From positions 1-26,881 of IMG/VR virus record IMGVR_UViG_3300024519_000010: DNA of 26,881 nucleotides, one strand, 5' to 3'. This DNA is from a virus. Under the pieces are notes generated by a model. It did not search any database. It saw only the letters and a program-made list of their open reading frames with translations, and was not told where the DNA came from. Position numbers and translations under genes: made by a program. Position 1 is the first letter of the stretch. Each line of letters opens with the position of its first letter. Shown here piece after piece: positions 1-26,881 of this stretch.

Positions 1-950
1 TTAAATCTATAGCTAAATTTTACAAATTTATCTTGAAGAAAAACTGGATCACCAGCGTAGTCATTTATAAAATATGGATTTTCAGAAAAAACAATAACGT
101 CGTTAGCATCTAAAGGTGTTGTAACACCAACAGGTACACTCGTGTTTAAACTAGTAGATGTACTACCAATATCTACAGTTGTATTAGCTGGTATTTTATC
201 TACATTTGGAGGTTGTAATGTTATCACATCTCCAGTGGTAAACGTACCATAAGTTGTATTTATAGGTATTACAGTTGCATTGCTAACTACAGAAGTTGCG
301 TAAGCAGCGGCACCACCTATACTAGAAGGCGATACTACATCTTTCATTGTACCTGTGTAAACACCTGCATTTTCAGTAACTAATTCTATAGATTGATATG
401 GAGCATACCTAGCTACTGAGATAGAATCTTCTGTAGCGTAATAAGAGCTACTATTTATTGCTTTATTTATATTTATTTTTCTTGGTTGATTTCTATTATC
501 AGTCCAAAATAATAAACCTTCTAAAACATTAACACCATAAATAGGATGTGTAGTTGATAAATTTAAAAATCTCCCAGTAACAAGAGTTTGAAAAGCATTA
601 GCATTATTTTGAACATCTAAACAAACAATAGAAGATACGCCTTGATTAACAGCAGCTTGGTTATTAGTTAAATTAGTAGGTGAAGTATCTGTATAATCTG
701 TAATAAATAAAAATATTTTTTCATTTATTTCATCTATACCATAACCTATTACAGTTGGATTGGTGCCAAAACCTGTAGCTGTAGCTATAAGACTATTACC
801 TAAAATATTTTCAAGCGCACCTACGTCGCTGTCTTCTGATTCTGAAACAGCTATATTAAAAGCGTTTCTGTACTGATTATTTGGAACTAGTCTAGAATCT
901 AAATCTTTATTCATTTTAGATGCTAGAAAACTATTCTTAACTTCAGCCAT
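1..950 (-). CDS. Partial tail stabilization-like structural protein (5' part, runs off left edge)
   Basis: The reading frame opens with ATG at 950 and stays open for 316 codons to the window edge, so the C-terminus is missing. It starts five bases after the stop of the tail accessory gene. The N-terminus reads MAEVKNSFLASKMNKDLDSR and is followed by LVPNNQYRNAFNIAVSESE, SDVGALENILGN and then repeated short beta-strand segments. I recognise this opening from proteins labelled stabilization or structural protein in many uncultured marine and crAss-like phage genomes. A role in the tail or neck complex is therefore inferred from family resemblance and from its place at the end of the head-neck gene series. 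I see no catalytic motif, and the beta-rich composition suits a virion component. The start is secure because no other in-frame ATG fits the conserved opening. Confidence 0.75.
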   Translation of the reverse strand, partial: MAEVKNSFLASKMNKDLDSRLVPNNQYRNAFNIAVSESEDSDVGALENILGNSLIATATGFGTNPTVIGYGIDEINEKIFLFITDYTDTSPTNLTNNQAAVNQGVSSIVCLDVQNNANAFQTLVTGRFLNLSTTHPIYGVNVLEGLLFWTDNRNQPRKININKAINSSSYYATEDSISVARYAPYQSIELVTENAGVYTGTMKDVVSPSSIGGAAAYATSVVSNATVIPINTTYGTFTTGDVITLQPPNVDKIPANTTVDIGSTSTSLNTSVPVGVTTPLDANDVIVFSENPYFINDYAGDPVFLQDKFVKFSYRF

Positions 951-20121: not shown

Positions 20122-20571
20122 TTATCTATTTTTATCTTTGTTTACGTTATACACAGATGTAATTAATACCTTATCAGTATACGTCTGTCCGCGCATTATC
20201 TTGTTTCGTCTTTCACTAATTGGAATATCTTCTTCGCCAACCATAATCTTGTACATAGTATTGATTAGCCTTTTACATTTAAACGAAACCTTATATATGT
20301 TATACTTCTGCGTTGTCCTGTTTCTTTCACGCCATACTACTATCCAACCTTCTTTCAGAAGCCTGTTCCATCTTCTGTTGTCCCAGCTAAATGAGTAACA
20401 ACCCATCTCAAAATCTTTTTTAGTAAAATGGTCCATGCAGTCTAAGTAAATTAACAACTCTAGTTCTGCATCGTTTAAACCGTTATTTCTACAAGCCCAT
20501 TTGCGAATTATCCGATAGTGTTTTAAGATGTTTAAATCTTTAATATCACTAGCTTCTAGTCTTCGCTTCAT
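20122..20571 (-). CDS. Winged-helix-like protein, possible regulator
   Basis: This 149-residue basic protein starts on an ATGA overlap with groES. Residues 15-110 read like a winged-helix domain of MarR/PadR type: YRIIRKWACRNNGLNDAELE, LLIYLDCMDHFTKKDFEMG, SWDNRRWNRLLKEGWIVVWR, ERNRTTQKYNIYKVSFKCKR, with a helix-turn-helix and a beta-wing of alternating hydrophobic and basic residues. The C-terminus is helical and basic. I recall closely similar proteins in marine phage genomes. DNA binding and a regulatory role are inferred. Coupling to the chaperonin genes may simply reflect the operon. Confidence 0.6.
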   Translation of the reverse strand: MKRRLEASDIKDLNILKHYRIIRKWACRNNGLNDAELELLIYLDCMDHFTKKDFEMGCYSFSWDNRRWNRLLKEGWIVVWRERNRTTQKYNIYKVSFKCKRLINTMYKIMVGEEDIPISERRNKIMRGQTYTDKVLITSVYNVNKDKNR

Positions 20572-20828
20572 AGTATTACAACAACGTCTTGTAGTTTTAT
20601 AACGTGAAACTTTTCTTTATCTATTTCTATGCCATGCCCAGCGTGACGATCAAAGTATATCTGATCACCGTCTTTAACACCTACAACTTCGCTTCCAGTA
20701 TTTAATACTTCAGCTTTTCTGTAACGTATATCTTCTCTGTGCATATCAGCTAAAATAAGTCCACCTTTTGTTTTAGTAGACGCTTCTTTTTGTATCTTTA
20801 TAATTAAGTTCTTACCTATCGCTTTCAT
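20568..20828 (-). CDS. groES: GroES co-chaperonin (single-domain)
   Basis: This 86-residue protein is a compact GroES. KNLIIKIQKEAS opens the barrel, KTKGGLILAD gives the mobile loop with the hydrophobic LIL tripeptide that docks on GroEL, KAEVLNTG follows, then KDGDQIYFDRHAG and an ending KLQDVVVIL comparable to the DDILAIVE end of ordinary GroES. The roof-loop region is short. Its start overlaps the last 17 bases of groEL and it ends in an ATGA overlap with the next gene. It would form the seven-membered lid for the GroEL encoded just before it. It is unlike the two-domain protein at 11671-12276, so the phage has two GroES-type genes. Confidence 0.88.
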   Translation of the reverse strand: MKAIGKNLIIKIQKEASTKTKGGLILADMHREDIRYRKAEVLNTGSEVVGVKDGDQIYFDRHAGHGIEIDKEKFHVIKLQDVVVIL

Positions 20829-22368
20829 CTATCCTTAGATTATTGATTACACAATCGGTTGAAAGAATAGTAGTAGCTACTGAAGCTGCGTTTCTAAGTG
20901 CAGACTTGGTAACTAGCAAAGGATCGACAATACCTGACTTAATCATATTTACCATATTTCCTGTAACCACATCTAATCCTTTGCCTTTTACCTTAGGCAT
21001 CTCGTATTCGTTAATGCCAGCATTTTTCAATATAGTTTTAAACGGAGCTTGTATGGCTTTCAAAAGAACTTGTTCGCTTTCGTTTTTAGGTTTTATTGCT
21101 AGTGACGCATTTAATAATGCTATACCACCACCAGATACTATACCTTCTTTTATCGCGGCTTTAGTTGCGCAAATAGCATCTTCGACTCTATCAGCTTTTT
21201 CACTGAGTTCAATCTCTGAGTTTGCACCAACTTTTACAACAGCAACTTTTGCAGATAATCTAGACAATCTTTTTTCTAGTTTGATTTTATCAAATGCATT
21301 TTTTGCTGTAGCTAATTCTTTTTTAATTTCTTCAACAAGACTATCAACTTCTTCGTTATCGCGATTAACTTGGAATATAGTGTCCATTTCGCTTGTTATA
21401 ACTTTTTTGCAAGTGCCTAACATATCAGGCGTGATTAAATCTACATCATCACCAAGATCTTCGTTTATAACAGTAGCACCAGTTAACAAAGCTAAATCAG
21501 ATAGCATGTCTTTTTTATTGATACCGTACGTAGGTGCGTTGATTATATTTACTTTTATATTGCCTTTGTTTTTATTCATAGCAAGAGCTGATACAACAGC
21601 CGGCTCACAGTCAGCGACAATAAGTAACGCTTTGTTATTTTTTATAACGTACTCAAGTACGCTTTGTATTTTTCTTATACTTTCAACTGGTGACTCTACA
21701 AGAAGTATTAGCGGATTATCAAGCTCAGCAGTTTTAGAAGTTTTGCTAGTAACAAAAGCCATATTTGTAAGGCCTTTATCATATTCAACACCATCTACTA
21801 TTTCTACTTTAGTATTACTTTCAGCTGTTCTCTCCATTGTAACAATACCAGTTTCATCTACACCTCTGAATGCATCAGCAATTATCTTACCTAGCTTAAC
21901 ATCATTGTTTGTAGATATCGTTGCTACTTGATCTATTATATTCCCAGAAACTTTAACAGAGTTTTTGTCTAGGTATTTTACAACCTTATCGACAGCAGAT
22001 GTTATACCATCTTTCATTTTTCTAGAACCTTGAATGTCTAGTATTTCGTAAGCCTCTGTTAAGATTGAGTGCGCTAGTACCGTAGCCGTTGTTGTTCCAT
22101 CGCCAGCTTCTTGAACGGTTTTTCTAGCAGCTTCCTTTAAAAGCGTAGCACCCATGTTTTCTACTGGGTCTCTAAGTATAATAGAGTTTGCAACTGTTAC
22201 ACCATCTTTTGTAATTACTGGATTTCCGGTGTTATCTTCCAGTATAACACATTTGCCGCTAGCCCCGAGTGTGGAGCTAACAGCTTGTGTTAATTTATCA
22301 ATACCTTTAAATACATTGGAGCGAGCTTCGCTACCAAAGTTAAGGTTTTTAACTATAGCGTCTGACAT
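20812..22368 (-). CDS. groEL: GroEL chaperonin (group I), C-terminal tail absent
   Basis: This 518-residue chaperonin keeps the ATP-site residues of bacterial GroEL: ITKDGVTVA (Asp-55, equivalent to E. coli Asp-52), AGDGTTTATVLA (Asp-90, for Asp-87) and RVEDA (Asp-397, for Asp-398), followed by VSGGGIAL. Changes from typical GroEL are TLGASG where most have TLGPKG, an apical domain that reads NAPTYGINKK at the place of the usual APGFGDRRK, and an ending NNLRIDESDR with no Gly-Gly-Met tail. Length is about 30 residues short of E. coli GroEL, from the missing tail and a shortened segment near residue 455. The apical surface keeps hydrophobic positions (SVLEYV, VVSALAM). Gene order is groEL then groES, the reverse of most bacteria. 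An active folding chamber is expected but unproven. Confidence 0.92.
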   Translation of the reverse strand: MSDAIVKNLNFGSEARSNVFKGIDKLTQAVSSTLGASGKCVILEDNTGNPVITKDGVTVANSIILRDPVENMGATLLKEAARKTVQEAGDGTTTATVLAHSILTEAYEILDIQGSRKMKDGITSAVDKVVKYLDKNSVKVSGNIIDQVATISTNNDVKLGKIIADAFRGVDETGIVTMERTAESNTKVEIVDGVEYDKGLTNMAFVTSKTSKTAELDNPLILLVESPVESIRKIQSVLEYVIKNNKALLIVADCEPAVVSALAMNKNKGNIKVNIINAPTYGINKKDMLSDLALLTGATVINEDLGDDVDLITPDMLGTCKKVITSEMDTIFQVNRDNEEVDSLVEEIKKELATAKNAFDKIKLEKRLSRLSAKVAVVKVGANSEIELSEKADRVEDAICATKAAIKEGIVSGGGIALLNASLAIKPKNESEQVLLKAIQAPFKTILKNAGINEYEMPKVKGKGLDVVTGNMVNMIKSGIVDPLLVTKSALRNAASVATTILSTDCVINNLRIDESDR

Positions 22369-22400: not shown

Positions 22401-22691
22401 TTATTCAAACGTCTTAACGACTTGTGGTCCGCGTAAGTAACCAAGCTTTTTTTCATAGTGCGATATCGATGCATCTATTGCTTGCTCGGCTCCTTCCATG
22501 GTTTCGCGTCTCGTTACGTCGATCCAAGAATCTTCTTTATTAGGATCTAGGTATTCTGTTTGGTAGAAACCGTTTGGTAGCTGGACAATACGCCAGTGTT
22601 TCTTTTCAGATAAATGCTTCCAAAGGTTAATGGTTTCTTCAGTTATTTGTGGTTGACTACTCCACGATTGAGTCTGGTAAAATAGTGTCAT
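22401..22691 (-). CDS. Small conserved phage protein ahead of groEL
   Basis: This 96-residue protein is the first gene after the promoter-like element. It begins MTLFYQTQSWSSQPQITEET and has a conserved core HWRIVQLPNGFYQTEYLDP, WIDVTRRETMEGAEQAIDAS and an ending GPQVVKTFE. I recognise this core from small conserved proteins in marine phage genomes without a known function. It has no membrane or DNA-binding motif. Position at the head of the chaperonin unit hints at early or middle expression but does not give a role. Confidence 0.6.
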   Translation of the reverse strand: MTLFYQTQSWSSQPQITEETINLWKHLSEKKHWRIVQLPNGFYQTEYLDPNKEDSWIDVTRRETMEGAEQAIDASISHYEKKLGYLRGPQVVKTFE

Positions 22692-22745: not shown

Positions 22746-22784
22746 CTATATACTTACTTGGTTTTAGTGATTTTTACAAATTAG
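22746..22784 (-). promoter_or_regulatory. Promoter-like element before the chaperonin unit
   Basis: On the coding strand, TTTG (22780-22777) is followed after exactly 20 bases by TAAGTATA (starting 22756), within a longer shared motif TTTGTAAA...ATCACT...GTAAGTATATA. This spacing matches the Bacteroidota -33/-7 layout (TTTG, 19-21 nt, TAnnTTTG), though the -7 box is a partial match. The same arrangement recurs at 26687-26718. It lies in the 97-base gap after the propeller gene and about 60 bases before the next ATG at 22691. Confidence 0.6.
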
Positions 22785-22788
22785 CTAA

Positions 22789-24915
22789 CTATACATCTAC
22801 AATTACACCGTCTGGCATAGAACCAGCTACTGCTGAAAAGCTACTTAAATAGTTGGTAGATATAGATTGACTACCACCGGCGATAGTATTAATAAACATA
22901 GCAAATTCACCTGAAGTACTAATAGAAGATCGTAATTGGCTAATGCCTATATTTGACGTACTTGTTGTTACGCCAAAGTCATCAGTGTATAAAGCTGTAG
23001 TTGTATTCCTTGGAAACAACACGTATTGACCAGATTCGCTAGCAGCGGATGATTCTCTAAAATCAGAAGAACCATAATTTTTATTTGTCCAAGAAACTCC
23101 ATAATTACTTGAATATTTACTTTCATTAGTATTTTGAATAAGTAAATATTGATATTTACCTTCGCCAGAAACAACAACTTGGTCATACCCTGTCGTTGAA
23201 ACAGGTGAAGGTAGAGAACTTGTAATATTTGTAAACGTTGATCCATAGTCTTGACTTACAAACACACCTGTACTAGAACTACCTATAGCTGGACTAAAAG
23301 CAGTTGAAACTATTATATATTTGCCACCAGAAGAAACAGATACCATTCGTTTACTAAATATAGTAGAGCCAGCAGGAACAGGTAATGTTACTTGAGTAAA
23401 TGAACTACCATAATCATTAGAAAGAAAAATATAATTATTAGTACCTCCAGGTTCTAAAATCATAACTTGACCAGATTTAGACATAGTTGTATCTTCAGCC
23501 TTATAAGTTCCGCTAACAGGTGAAGGAAGTGAAGTCCACGTTACCCCAGAGTCAGTACTCATCCTTGGGCTTAAATTTTGCTGGTTTTTACCTGAAGCTA
23601 AAATATAAGTATAACTATCGCTAGCAGCTCCAACAGTGTAACTACTATTTGGTAAAGCGCCAAAAGAAGGTTGAGGTGAAACTAGCGCTAGGCTGCTATC
23701 AAATAAACCTATAAAAGGTGAAACACCTAGCGATCCTAAAGCTCTAAAACTAGAACCTACTATAGGTACATATGGATCTGCGCTAGGACTTAAATTAGCT
23801 ACGCAGGTAACAGCTCTTAAACCTGATGGCCAAGAAGTAAGTGATGGTTGAGTGGCAAAAAAGTCAGTATTTATAAAAACATCAATGCTTGTACTACCAT
23901 TACCAGAATTGCTCCAAAATGAATATTTACCGCTATTGCTAATACTGTTAAAAGCAAAAGTGGAAGAAATGGCTACAATTAATTTATTTACACCAAAATC
24001 TTTAGAATACCAATCTCCACCTAAAGCTGTTTGACTACCAGAAACTATATATTGACCTGTTTCATTTTGTTTAAATGTCGTTCTGGCTGTGTTTGTGAAT
24101 GTTCTTGATGAGAAAGTAGAACCAAAATCTGAAGAATAGAAATCTCCAGTATTCGATTGACCTACAACAAAAACTCTTTCTCCGTTGCCTGAAACACTAA
24201 CTTCAATAAAAGATCGCTGGGAAGGCGAGGACGGGTAACCAGCATTGGAAAGTAAGTTTGTTATATCTGTAAATGTTTGACCGTAATCATTGCTTCTATA
24301 TAATACGGTATCATTAGAGCTGCCAGCTACTGTACCGCCGGTTATGTAAATATATTTACCACCGCTGCTTACAGTAATACCAGCATCTCGTAGGGTTGCT
24401 ATATTAACAGATGATAAACTAAAGCTAACGCCAGAATCAGTAGAAATCCAAATATCACCACTTGTTGTTCCACCAGAAATGTTTAATACAATTACCTCAC
24501 CATTGCTAGAAATATTAACATATTGCCACGATTTAGATGGAACATTTGGAATAGCCCCCCAACTTTGCCCTTTGTCATAACTAATTAAAGAAGCGTTTGC
24601 AGGAATACTAGTAGCTATCATAATATTTAAATTATCTGAAGCTTCTCTTATTATATAATTACTATTAGGTAAATTACCAAATGTTACAGGTGGTGTCACC
24701 GTGTTTAAGTTTTCATCAACTAATGAAAAATAAGGGGCTGTGGTAATTGAAGTTATGAATCTAGGATTACCCTCTACAGGTACATACGGATCTTCGCTTG
24801 ATATAGGCCAAACAAGTGTAGAGCCGCTATATATTTTAGAAATATCAGTACTACCTAGTTTTAAAGTACCTGCTGCCGGAGCGGATGTCGCCGTACCTAT
24901 TCTTAAGTCTGCCAT
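22789..24915 (-). CDS. Receptor-binding protein with two tandem Asp-box (BNR) beta-propellers
   Basis: This 708-residue protein has a short anchor (MADLRIGTATSAPAAGTLKL, then DISKIYSGSTLVWP) like that of other marine phage tail proteins. Next come two related halves, residues about 40-377 and 378-708, each opening with S-x-DPYVP and then F-G-x-LPNS-x-Y. Both halves carry Asp-box motifs (S-x-D-x-G-x-x-F/W): SYDKGQSW, STDSGVSF, SNDYGQTF, SSDFGSTF in the first and STDSGVTW, SNDYGSSF, SQDYGSTF, SSNYGVSW in the second. Asp-boxes mark sialidase/sortilin-type beta-propellers. Two tandem propellers are inferred. I see no clear sialidase catalytic Arg triad, so binding rather than cleavage of a glycan is likelier. 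It is stop-start coupled (TAATG) to the fibre before it. Confidence 0.78.
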   Translation of the reverse strand: MADLRIGTATSAPAAGTLKLGSTDISKIYSGSTLVWPISSEDPYVPVEGNPRFITSITTAPYFSLVDENLNTVTPPVTFGNLPNSNYIIREASDNLNIMIATSIPANASLISYDKGQSWGAIPNVPSKSWQYVNISSNGEVIVLNISGGTTSGDIWISTDSGVSFSLSSVNIATLRDAGITVSSGGKYIYITGGTVAGSSNDTVLYRSNDYGQTFTDITNLLSNAGYPSSPSQRSFIEVSVSGNGERVFVVGQSNTGDFYSSDFGSTFSSRTFTNTARTTFKQNETGQYIVSGSQTALGGDWYSKDFGVNKLIVAISSTFAFNSISNSGKYSFWSNSGNGSTSIDVFINTDFFATQPSLTSWPSGLRAVTCVANLSPSADPYVPIVGSSFRALGSLGVSPFIGLFDSSLALVSPQPSFGALPNSSYTVGAASDSYTYILASGKNQQNLSPRMSTDSGVTWTSLPSPVSGTYKAEDTTMSKSGQVMILEPGGTNNYIFLSNDYGSSFTQVTLPVPAGSTIFSKRMVSVSSGGKYIIVSTAFSPAIGSSSTGVFVSQDYGSTFTNITSSLPSPVSTTGYDQVVVSGEGKYQYLLIQNTNESKYSSNYGVSWTNKNYGSSDFRESSAASESGQYVLFPRNTTTALYTDDFGVTTSTSNIGISQLRSSISTSGEFAMFINTIAGGSQSISTNYLSSFSAVAGSMPDGVIVDV

Positions 24916-26267
24916 TATACTATTATATATATTGTACTTGCTACTGGTGTTAACCCGTTATATTCTGCTTGAGTTAAAGTTTGTATAATTGTAGGCGCGG
25001 TCTGGGTTGTAGTGTTTCCAACTATAGCAATATCTAATTTAGCTTTTGAAGTTGCGCTTATAACTCCAGCTGTATTACCACCGGCAGATGCTTCTGCTAT
25101 CGTTGTATTAGTACCAGTTGAAGATGTTATAAGAACATCCGTAGCGCTAGGCGTATTATTTAAATCAGTCGCGCCACCGCCTCCACCAGAAGGAGTAGGT
25201 ATATTTAAAATTCTAGTTGTTGTGTTAAGAGTTGCAGCGGTACCGGGTGTACCATTAGTAGTAAGCGTAAGATTAGGGATCCAATCAGTACCTGTAACTG
25301 TAGAGCTTAACACCTGGCCGCTTGTTCCAGTTTGACTGTTTGAATCTAAAAAAGCACCTATAACTAGTAAGTTGCCGTTTACATAAAGTTTTTGACTTGG
25401 ACTTGTAGTACCAATACCAACGTTTCCATTAGTTACATGTAATACACTAGTTCCAGTATTATCTAAGAGTTGCAACGGAAAGCCTACGCCTGATATATCA
25501 CCTATTTGCATAGGATCAGCTGTAGTGCTTGTAGTACTAGCAAATGCTTTACCATTTAAACCGTAGTATTTACCAGCGCCTGTAACGTCAATAGCTTGTG
25601 AAGGTGCTACAGTACCAATACCTAATCTATCATTAGTTGAATCCCATAAAAAAGTATTATCACTAGAAACAGTTGAAGCACCAGTCCAAAATGTAACTTG
25701 ACCATCTACACCTGAACCTGTTATACCGCTACCGCCACCGGCATTTGCCACCCAAGATAATTGCGCTGGATCGTTTCCATCTGTTTGTAGCACGTCGCTT
25801 GGGTTTCCAATAGTTGTAGGTAGTTTTAAAGTATATGTAGCACCAGCAGAGTGCGCTGGACTTTGCAGAGAAACACCGTGAGAGTTTTGCTCACAGTTTA
25901 ATTGTATAGTACCAGGAGTTGTAGCATCAGCGCTTCTTACTTCTAGCTTACCATTTCCGTTACCTTGAACCTGAAGATTCGCGTTTGTGGTCGATGCTTC
26001 TATTCTATCTGTTACTTTTATACCGTTTGTTGTTGTTTCAAACTTTATATTGTTGTTATAACGTAAAGAAACCGCGCCATTATCGTTAAACACAGCGTAT
26101 GTGTCACCTAAAAGACCAGCTTTAAAAGTTATTGTAGAACCTCCAGCTATTGTAAAACCTCCAGTGCCTGTTTCGAGTATTTCAGTTTCACCAGTAACGC
26201 TGCTGTATTTTATAGACAAATCATTATTGCTTCCAAAAGTTAAATTTGTATTATCTGATATATTCAT
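24915..26267 (-). CDS. Tail fibre, C-terminal part of a frameshifted gene
   Basis: The first ATG in this frame is at 26267, giving 450 residues, but the frame is open to 26462 and the upstream 60 codons read as fibre (ACA-ATT-GGT at 26438 gives TIGITGAPAAGTYLD, then a Gly-rich stretch). The product has repeated shaft motifs such as RLGIGTVAPSQAIDV and NVGIGTTSPSQKLYV, low-complexity Thr/Gly strands and an ending LTQAEYNGLTPVASTIYIIV. It lacks an S74 domain. The GIGT-x-x-PSQ units are typical of trimeric fibres. The N-terminal virion anchor is in the separate frame at 26396-26662. A true protein of 582 residues is expected if one base were restored or a -1 slip occurs. Confidence 0.75.
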   Translation of the reverse strand: MNISDNTNLTFGSNNDLSIKYSSVTGETEILETGTGGFTIAGGSTITFKAGLLGDTYAVFNDNGAVSLRYNNNIKFETTTNGIKVTDRIEASTTNANLQVQGNGNGKLEVRSADATTPGTIQLNCEQNSHGVSLQSPAHSAGATYTLKLPTTIGNPSDVLQTDGNDPAQLSWVANAGGGSGITGSGVDGQVTFWTGASTVSSDNTFLWDSTNDRLGIGTVAPSQAIDVTGAGKYYGLNGKAFASTTSTTADPMQIGDISGVGFPLQLLDNTGTSVLHVTNGNVGIGTTSPSQKLYVNGNLLVIGAFLDSNSQTGTSGQVLSSTVTGTDWIPNLTLTTNGTPGTAATLNTTTRILNIPTPSGGGGGATDLNNTPSATDVLITSSTGTNTTIAEASAGGNTAGVISATSKAKLDIAIVGNTTTQTAPTIIQTLTQAEYNGLTPVASTIYIIV

Positions 26268-26395: not shown

Positions 26396-26662
26396 CTAGA
26401 TATGTCCCAGCTGCGGGCGCACCTGTGATACCAATTGTAAAGAAGGAGTTGTTGTTGCTGTACTAACCGTAGTAGTTATACCAGTAATAGTAGATGTAGC
26501 GCTAAAACTTGTCACTGTACCTGTCCCAGACAGTAAACCAGCTAAGTCTTCTAGCGAAATACTATAATTTGCAGTCTCGTTTGGATTAGACGGAGTCCTT
26601 GAGATTATCATCAAGTCACTAAGCAGAGGTGTCGATGATGGGTAAGAGTATATTATTGCCAT
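26396..26662 (-). CDS. Tail fibre, N-terminal part (frameshifted)
   Basis: The frame starts at 26662 with MAIIYSYPSSTPLLSDLMII, then SRTPSNPNETANYSISLEDL, a short anchor like that of other phage fibres, and runs through TVTSFSATSTITG and TPSL. The last 13 residues (QLVSQVRPQLGHI) look unlike a fibre and end at a TAG. The -1 frame from 26438 continues naturally as TIGITGAP, the expected continuation after TPSL. The missing base or slip therefore lies near 26438. If functional, it is the anchor half of the 582-residue fibre. Confidence 0.7.
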   Translation of the reverse strand: MAIIYSYPSSTPLLSDLMIISRTPSNPNETANYSISLEDLAGLLSGTGTVTSFSATSTITGITTTVSTATTTPSLQLVSQVRPQLGHI

Positions 26663-26881
26663 TGTTCAAATTCTTTTTATATATTATATACTTACAGGTA
26701 AAAGTGATTGTTTACAAACAAGCTATATAGTGACAATAGCCCCTTACTCTATATACTTATAACCCTAATGTCACAGTACTTGAAAAAATTACGTTAGATA
26801 TTTTGGGGTGTGGTGTTACCCCCTATCCCCCTGATTATCAACGATTTACAAAAACGATTTTTATTTCAATGGGCCCCCCAA
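26663..26881. other. Intergenic leader at right edge with promoter-like elements
   Basis: This 219-base stretch has no convincing gene on either strand; short frames at the edge on the minus strand close within 14 codons. It holds the promoter-like element at 26687-26718 and a second TAAGTATA at 26752-26759 without a proper TTTG partner. Near 26805-26825 a GGGGU/ACCCC hairpin of 5 pairs lacks an immediate U-run. It could be the start of the fibre transcription unit and the end of an earlier one. Confidence 0.5.
26687..26718 (-). promoter_or_regulatory. Promoter-like element before the fibre unit
   Basis: On the coding strand, TTTG (26718-26715) is followed after exactly 20 bases by TAAGTATA (starting 26694). 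The wider match to the element at 22746-22784 is TTTGTAAA, ATCACT and GTAAGTATATA. It stands 25 bases before the fibre ATG at 26662. The repeated sequence and spacing in two separate leaders support a real promoter. Confidence 0.6.

Follow-up and report, generated by a model that had tools for sequence, protein, structure and literature searches.

The 708-aa ORF at 22789-24915 (minus strand) of a 26,881-base virus record, whose whole length is called the window here, quite probably encodes an exchangeable receptor-binding tip of a short-tailed (marine) phage with relatives infecting Bacteroidota; an N-terminal adapter would dock on the tip of a fibre and two propellers would form the head. The adapter and the type of fibre ending encoded just upstream of it recur together in other phages, and this recurring pair is a more interesting result than the tandem propeller.

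An adapter and two homologous halves

The ORF is made of an N-terminal adapter and two homologous halves, as follows.

24805..24915, minus strand: N-terminal adapter, residues 1-37, with LGST-type repeats that end in VWP; resembles N-termini of tail-region proteins in unrelated phages
23785..24792, minus strand: predicted propeller A, residues 42-377, starting at DPYVP; end-to-end homology to B and a profile match, own model weak
22792..23778, minus strand: predicted seven-bladed Asp-box propeller B, residues 380-708; AF2 model and structural matches

The initial annotation of this DNA had described a receptor-binding protein with two S-x-DPYVP openings and a string of Asp-boxes. Both features are present: the openings are at residues 40 and 378, and seven strict Asp-boxes (pattern S-x-D-x-G-x-[TS]-[WF]; mean of 0.008 in shuffles of the same protein) are at residues 112, 158, 208, 261, 453, 499 and 554, with degenerate boxes near 304 and 602. 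The halves can indeed be aligned, with a Smith-Waterman score of 368 over about 326 residues against 60±11 (maximum 103) for shuffled sequence. The reported DNA similarity of the two openings is real, though short (83% over 30 nt, 24769-24798 versus 23755-23784); this DNA codes for the best-conserved peptide of the family.

The BNR model (PF02012) scores the ORF at 14.3 bits, under its curated cut-off of 27, and its match is below or near the cut-off in all seven members of the propeller family. A PHROGs search with the propeller ORF assigned no family, no propeller homologue was found in the isolate-phage collection, and an exact search of viral contigs with the opening DNA gave no match.

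Three large muzzle-type proteins (L011/L022, L028 and L078) each have a single propeller of the same family at the C-terminus, whereas the majority of muzzle homologues whose end is complete carry none. The muzzle of PhicrAss001 forms the end of the tail (PMC10172136). No match to the muzzle body was found in the 708-aa ORF, and the window phage has a separate muzzle gene. Muzzle-type genes were seen split into two ORFs in L009 (11349-17327) and into four in L097 (7998-13519). A propeller of the same family also ends a repeat-rich protein in L020 (1-2847), a contig binned as a Cytophagales genome, with amidase, holin-like and fibre-like genes nearby; L020 is probably phage or prophage DNA. The L020 propeller domain gave no match in a PDB sequence search.

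Fold of the two halves

That the halves are two tandem propellers was borne out in structure prediction by a confident model of half B, and for half A by homology only. The AF2 model of half B, built on an alignment of seven sequences, has pLDDT 85 and pTM 0.87, and the best structural matches to it are propellers; they include 3b7f, an Asp-box protein (Z 19.5), and 7bid, which is seven-bladed (Z 20.4, rmsd 3.8, 280 aligned). The fold comparison singles out no family, as many seven-bladed propellers score within 1-2 Z of each other. Turns are spaced by ∼47 residues, which fits seven blades. In our own assignment of the blades of half B, blades 2-4 have strict Asp-boxes, blades 5 and 6 have looser ones, and blade 1 is closed by the C-terminal strand; the Asp-box positions fit the C-D hairpins of the model. 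The model of half B is thus an Asp-box propeller with seven blades. Over the full length of the ORF the model is poor (pLDDT 64), and half A is weak in it, so that the propeller fold predicted for half A rests on its homology to B.

Sortilin/Vps10 proteins have a ten-bladed propeller followed by cysteine-rich 10CC domains. This family was rejected given seven blades and one cysteine in 708 residues, though half B alone passes PF15902 (34.4 versus 33 bits).

Age and origin of the tandem

From the similar DNA of the openings a fairly recent duplication had been proposed; this we reject. The halves share 30.5% of amino acids and are no closer to each other than to propellers of other phages: identity with the three muzzle propellers is 31.7-35.7% for B and 29.9-31.4% for A. 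Aligned codons of the halves are 48.5% identical in nucleotides, and the same codon is used at 53 of the residues shared by A and B, where 46±4.5 would be expected at saturation; synonymous sites are thus near saturation and a recent date is unsupported. In the DNA for DPYVPxxG, the best-conserved peptide of the family, A and B match at 20 of 24 bases, and distant members still match at 15-18 of the 24. In the trees the deciding forks are unsupported or unresolved, with A, L269 and L020 on long branches. By these sequence comparisons the tandem would be either an old duplication or a fusion of two diverged propeller copies.

The start of the 52-kb sister contig L001 (1-975) coincides exactly with the second DPY[VT]P, as though the assembly had broken at the repeat or where strains vary.

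The propeller gene in an exchangeable slot

The terminase of the window phage shares 64% identity with that of an unclassified Manatee Spring podovirus and 45% with those of Flavobacterium 'elemo' phages; portal and GroEL genes are present as well. On this kinship, the host is probably a member of Bacteroidota. The genes and boundary that matter here are the following.

20812..22368, minus strand: phage GroEL (PF00118, E 4.8e-55; phrog_5725), downstream of the cassette, used as conserved reference
22401..22691, minus strand: conserved 96-aa gene bordering the cassette, found in the window, L110-L113, L109 and L114
22777..22789, no strand: cassette boundary; blastn similarity starts at 22777 for L110, L112 and L113 and at 22786 for L111, and runs downstream
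24915..26267, minus strand: upstream fibre gene; residues 428-450 (about 24918-24986) match PF24243 Phage_tail_C, E 1.9e-5
3..950, minus strand: muzzle-type tail protein, N-terminal part, cut by the contig end (phmmer E 9.4e-22; phrog_14478)

Relatives of the cassette region were retrieved via GroEL. Past the boundary, which is 12 bp from the stop of the propeller gene, identity to the window is 88-91% in L110, L112 and L113 (from 22777) and 86-91% in L111 (from 22786). In the slot itself none of these four contigs has a propeller, the adapter or the PF24243 motif: L110 and L112 carry fibres with an S74 chaperone domain there, and L111 and L113 carry other genes. These relatives show that the stretch preceding the conserved 96-aa gene is a cassette that has been swapped.

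Some further observations were made around the cassette. The sequence TAAGTATATAR occurs three times on the minus strand (22746-22756, 26684-26694 and 26749-26759; 0.26 expected in the window), flanking the fibre and propeller cassette; possibly these copies are phage promoters or exchange sites. The fibre gene is apparently split by a frameshift near 26430 into an 88-aa ORF (26396-26662), which has a typical fibre N-terminus, and the 450-aa ORF, whose open frame reaches upstream to 26462; the frameshift could be real or an assembly error. After the phage GroEL gene there is an 86-aa ORF (20568-20828) whose counterpart in L002 reads like GroES.

The adapter and its constant neighbor

A tblastn search of the phage collection with the first 49 residues of the ORF gave weak matches (E 0.2-9). 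Nine phage records were inspected, and in 9 of 9 the match is at the start of a reading frame in the tail region: crAssphage gp64 (BACON), Gordonia phages CaiB and NHagos, three mycobacteriophages, Rhodococcus phage NiceHouse, Tsukamurella phage TPA2 (where the frame is unannotated) and Synechococcus phage S-CBS2. Among viral contigs, the adapter is followed by one propeller in L269, by DUF285 in L270 and by another head in L271; in L270 it occupies the same slot, in the cassette region that precedes the 96-aa gene and GroEL. The heads found behind the adapter in unrelated phages include a single propeller, DUF285, a BACON protein and glycine-rich heads.

In the window the adapter gene directly follows a fibre whose end scores 24.3 bits against PF24243 (cut-off 23.7), and the stop of the fibre gene overlaps the start of the adapter gene. 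The same arrangement was observed throughout the discovery set of 13 loci, the window included, which had been picked solely for their similarity to the adapter: in 13 of 13, the PF24243 motif forms the end of the gene immediately upstream, with matches in L270, CaiB, NHagos and L269 that are below the Pfam cut-off and partly rest on the visible motif. HMMs made from these loci were frozen and then run on twelve new records. In the new records with an N-terminal adapter the upstream gene ends in the motif in 10 of 10 cases (22-52 bits), including Phelemich, whose adapter itself scores only 14 bits. In Sadboi and Luker the adapter-like match is C-terminal in its gene, and the upstream endings score 9.9 and 5.7 bits; both were left out of the count. 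A further new case, L127, came from loci already in the comparison set. In total, the motif ends the upstream gene for all 24 adapter-led genes (13 discovery, and 11 test genes examined once the hypothesis had been fixed), many of the actinophage cases being related, so that independent lineages are fewer than 24. As background, the motif ends 20 of 3,859 ORFs of at least 100 residues in the loci compared up to that point, a number that includes the training loci and three apparently spurious matches.

In Mycobacterium phage phiGD24-3 (L105, 2181-3099) a second PF24243-like motif is found at the end of gp7, and gp8, the gene after it, opens with what seems to be a diverged adapter; it is possible that this genome holds two adapter/PF24243 pairs.

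A search of open-licence papers for PF24243 found no match. The co-occurrence in sequence suggests that the adapter and the PF24243 fibre end may be a reusable docking pair. We give even chances to a more specific proposal, in which the ∼37-residue LGST adapter and the ∼26-residue PF24243 end would be a dedicated plug and socket for mounting interchangeable receptor-binding heads in phages of Bacteroidota, Actinomycetota and cyanobacteria, the window phage having used it to carry two propellers. Should the docking pair be real, a signature of two genes (a PF24243-ended fibre, then an adapter-led gene) would flag candidate receptor-binding heads across many phages; it would cover many hypothetical proteins of actinophages as well as crAssphage gp64, and the role could be tested by a simple binding assay.

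Fast evolution of half B

The window was compared with the sister contig L001 over domain B, the part of the ORF that follows the second DPY[VT]P, where the contig starts. With similar dS, dN/dS is 0.75 in domain B versus 0.047 in GroEL; a value below 1 also fits relaxed constraint. In the B-C loops 18 of 43 positions have changed, against 8-13% of positions in every other class, the D-A loops among them. Family-wide identity is 0.24 in the B-C and D-A loops versus 0.58 in the A-B and C-D turns, faces being assigned by general propeller topology rather than coordinates; the conserved turns include the Asp-boxes themselves.

The probable role and its alternatives

Most likely, the tandem Asp-box propeller sits on the fibre as a module of its distal tip. 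The fibre encoded just upstream would offer its C-terminal PF24243 tip as the docking site for the N-terminal adapter, and the two seven-bladed Asp-box propellers would be the distal head in contact with the cell surface. In each propeller the face with the Asp-boxes would be the structural back and the opposite face, with the most variable B-C loops, would make the contact; two diverged propellers might provide two different contacts or extra reach.

We infer the receptor-binding role from context, namely the cassette slot, the propellers at muzzle ends and the fast evolution of B, and to this extent the initial annotation stands. Its argument from Asp-boxes to glycan binding does not: in a survey of Asp-box propellers the boxes lie opposite the active-site face with the aromatic residue buried, and a role in carbohydrate binding was argued against (PMC2716378), so that the step from boxes to glycans fails. 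A glycan ligand is possible for other reasons. A search of open-licence papers for Asp-box phage tails found no match.

An alternative that we consider unlikely is a polysaccharide-degrading tail enzyme of GH74-like layout, which would cut host or algal polysaccharide during adsorption. GH74 xyloglucanases share the tandem layout, two seven-bladed Asp-box propellers in succession (PMC2716378), and the ORF has this layout too, half A by homology. GH74 enzymes are also the best PDB matches in Foldseek (E 1e-10), and a glycosylhydrolase NCBIfam model matches weakly (28.6 bits versus a cut-off of 175). However, many unrelated seven-bladed propellers score as well as GH74. For the catalytic aspartate pair we looked for TD-x-GG, which we take to be the GH74 motif; it is absent from the ORF, and the two-domain model is without confidence. 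Also absent is the [FY]RIP sialidase motif, and GH33 sialidase was rejected on that ground. Furthermore, muzzle proteins can end in a lone propeller of the same family, which means that no cleft between two propellers is needed.

Improbable too, in our estimate, is a structural tail or fibre-assembly protein whose propellers contact only virion proteins and never the host. Propellers are common scaffolds, and those inside muzzle and nozzle proteins have a structural role (PMC10172136). Against this reading, the cassette is replaced between close relatives, domain B evolves fast and heads are exchanged behind the same adapter; an exposed, host-selected part fits these observations better than an internal one.

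Comparison with known systems

The receptor-binding tip proposed here can be set beside several known systems. The propeller-bearing receptor-binding proteins phi11 gp45, PRD1 P2 and phiKZ gp131C resemble the ORF in that the domain putatively in contact with the receptor, in a tail or vertex protein, is a propeller; the paper that describes them (PMC4901313) confirmed ligand binding by the propeller for none of them. Unlike the ORF, they have one propeller per chain, five-bladed in phi11 and PRD1 and seven-bladed in phiKZ, and an LGST adapter is unreported. GH74 xyloglucanases, with type 3 Asp-box propellers (PMC2716378), are like the ORF in having two successive seven-bladed propellers; they are catalytic, whereas the ORF is known from sequence, lies in a phage tail context with an adapter in front, and has single-propeller relatives. 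The crAss-type muzzles with a C-terminal propeller (L011/L022, L028 and L078) are tail-end proteins whose propeller is homologous from DPY-x-P, but they have one propeller fused to a body, whereas the ORF has two on a separate adapter gene. A parallel in arrangement is given by crAssphage gp64 (BACON), CaiB gp37, mycobacteriophage Trixie gp8, S-CBS2 gp033, L269 and L270, all with an N-terminal LGST adapter directly after a PF24243-ended gene; their hosts differ and their heads are unrelated to that of the ORF, except for the one propeller of L269. The tandem propeller is a new layout for a phage tip, made from a known fold.
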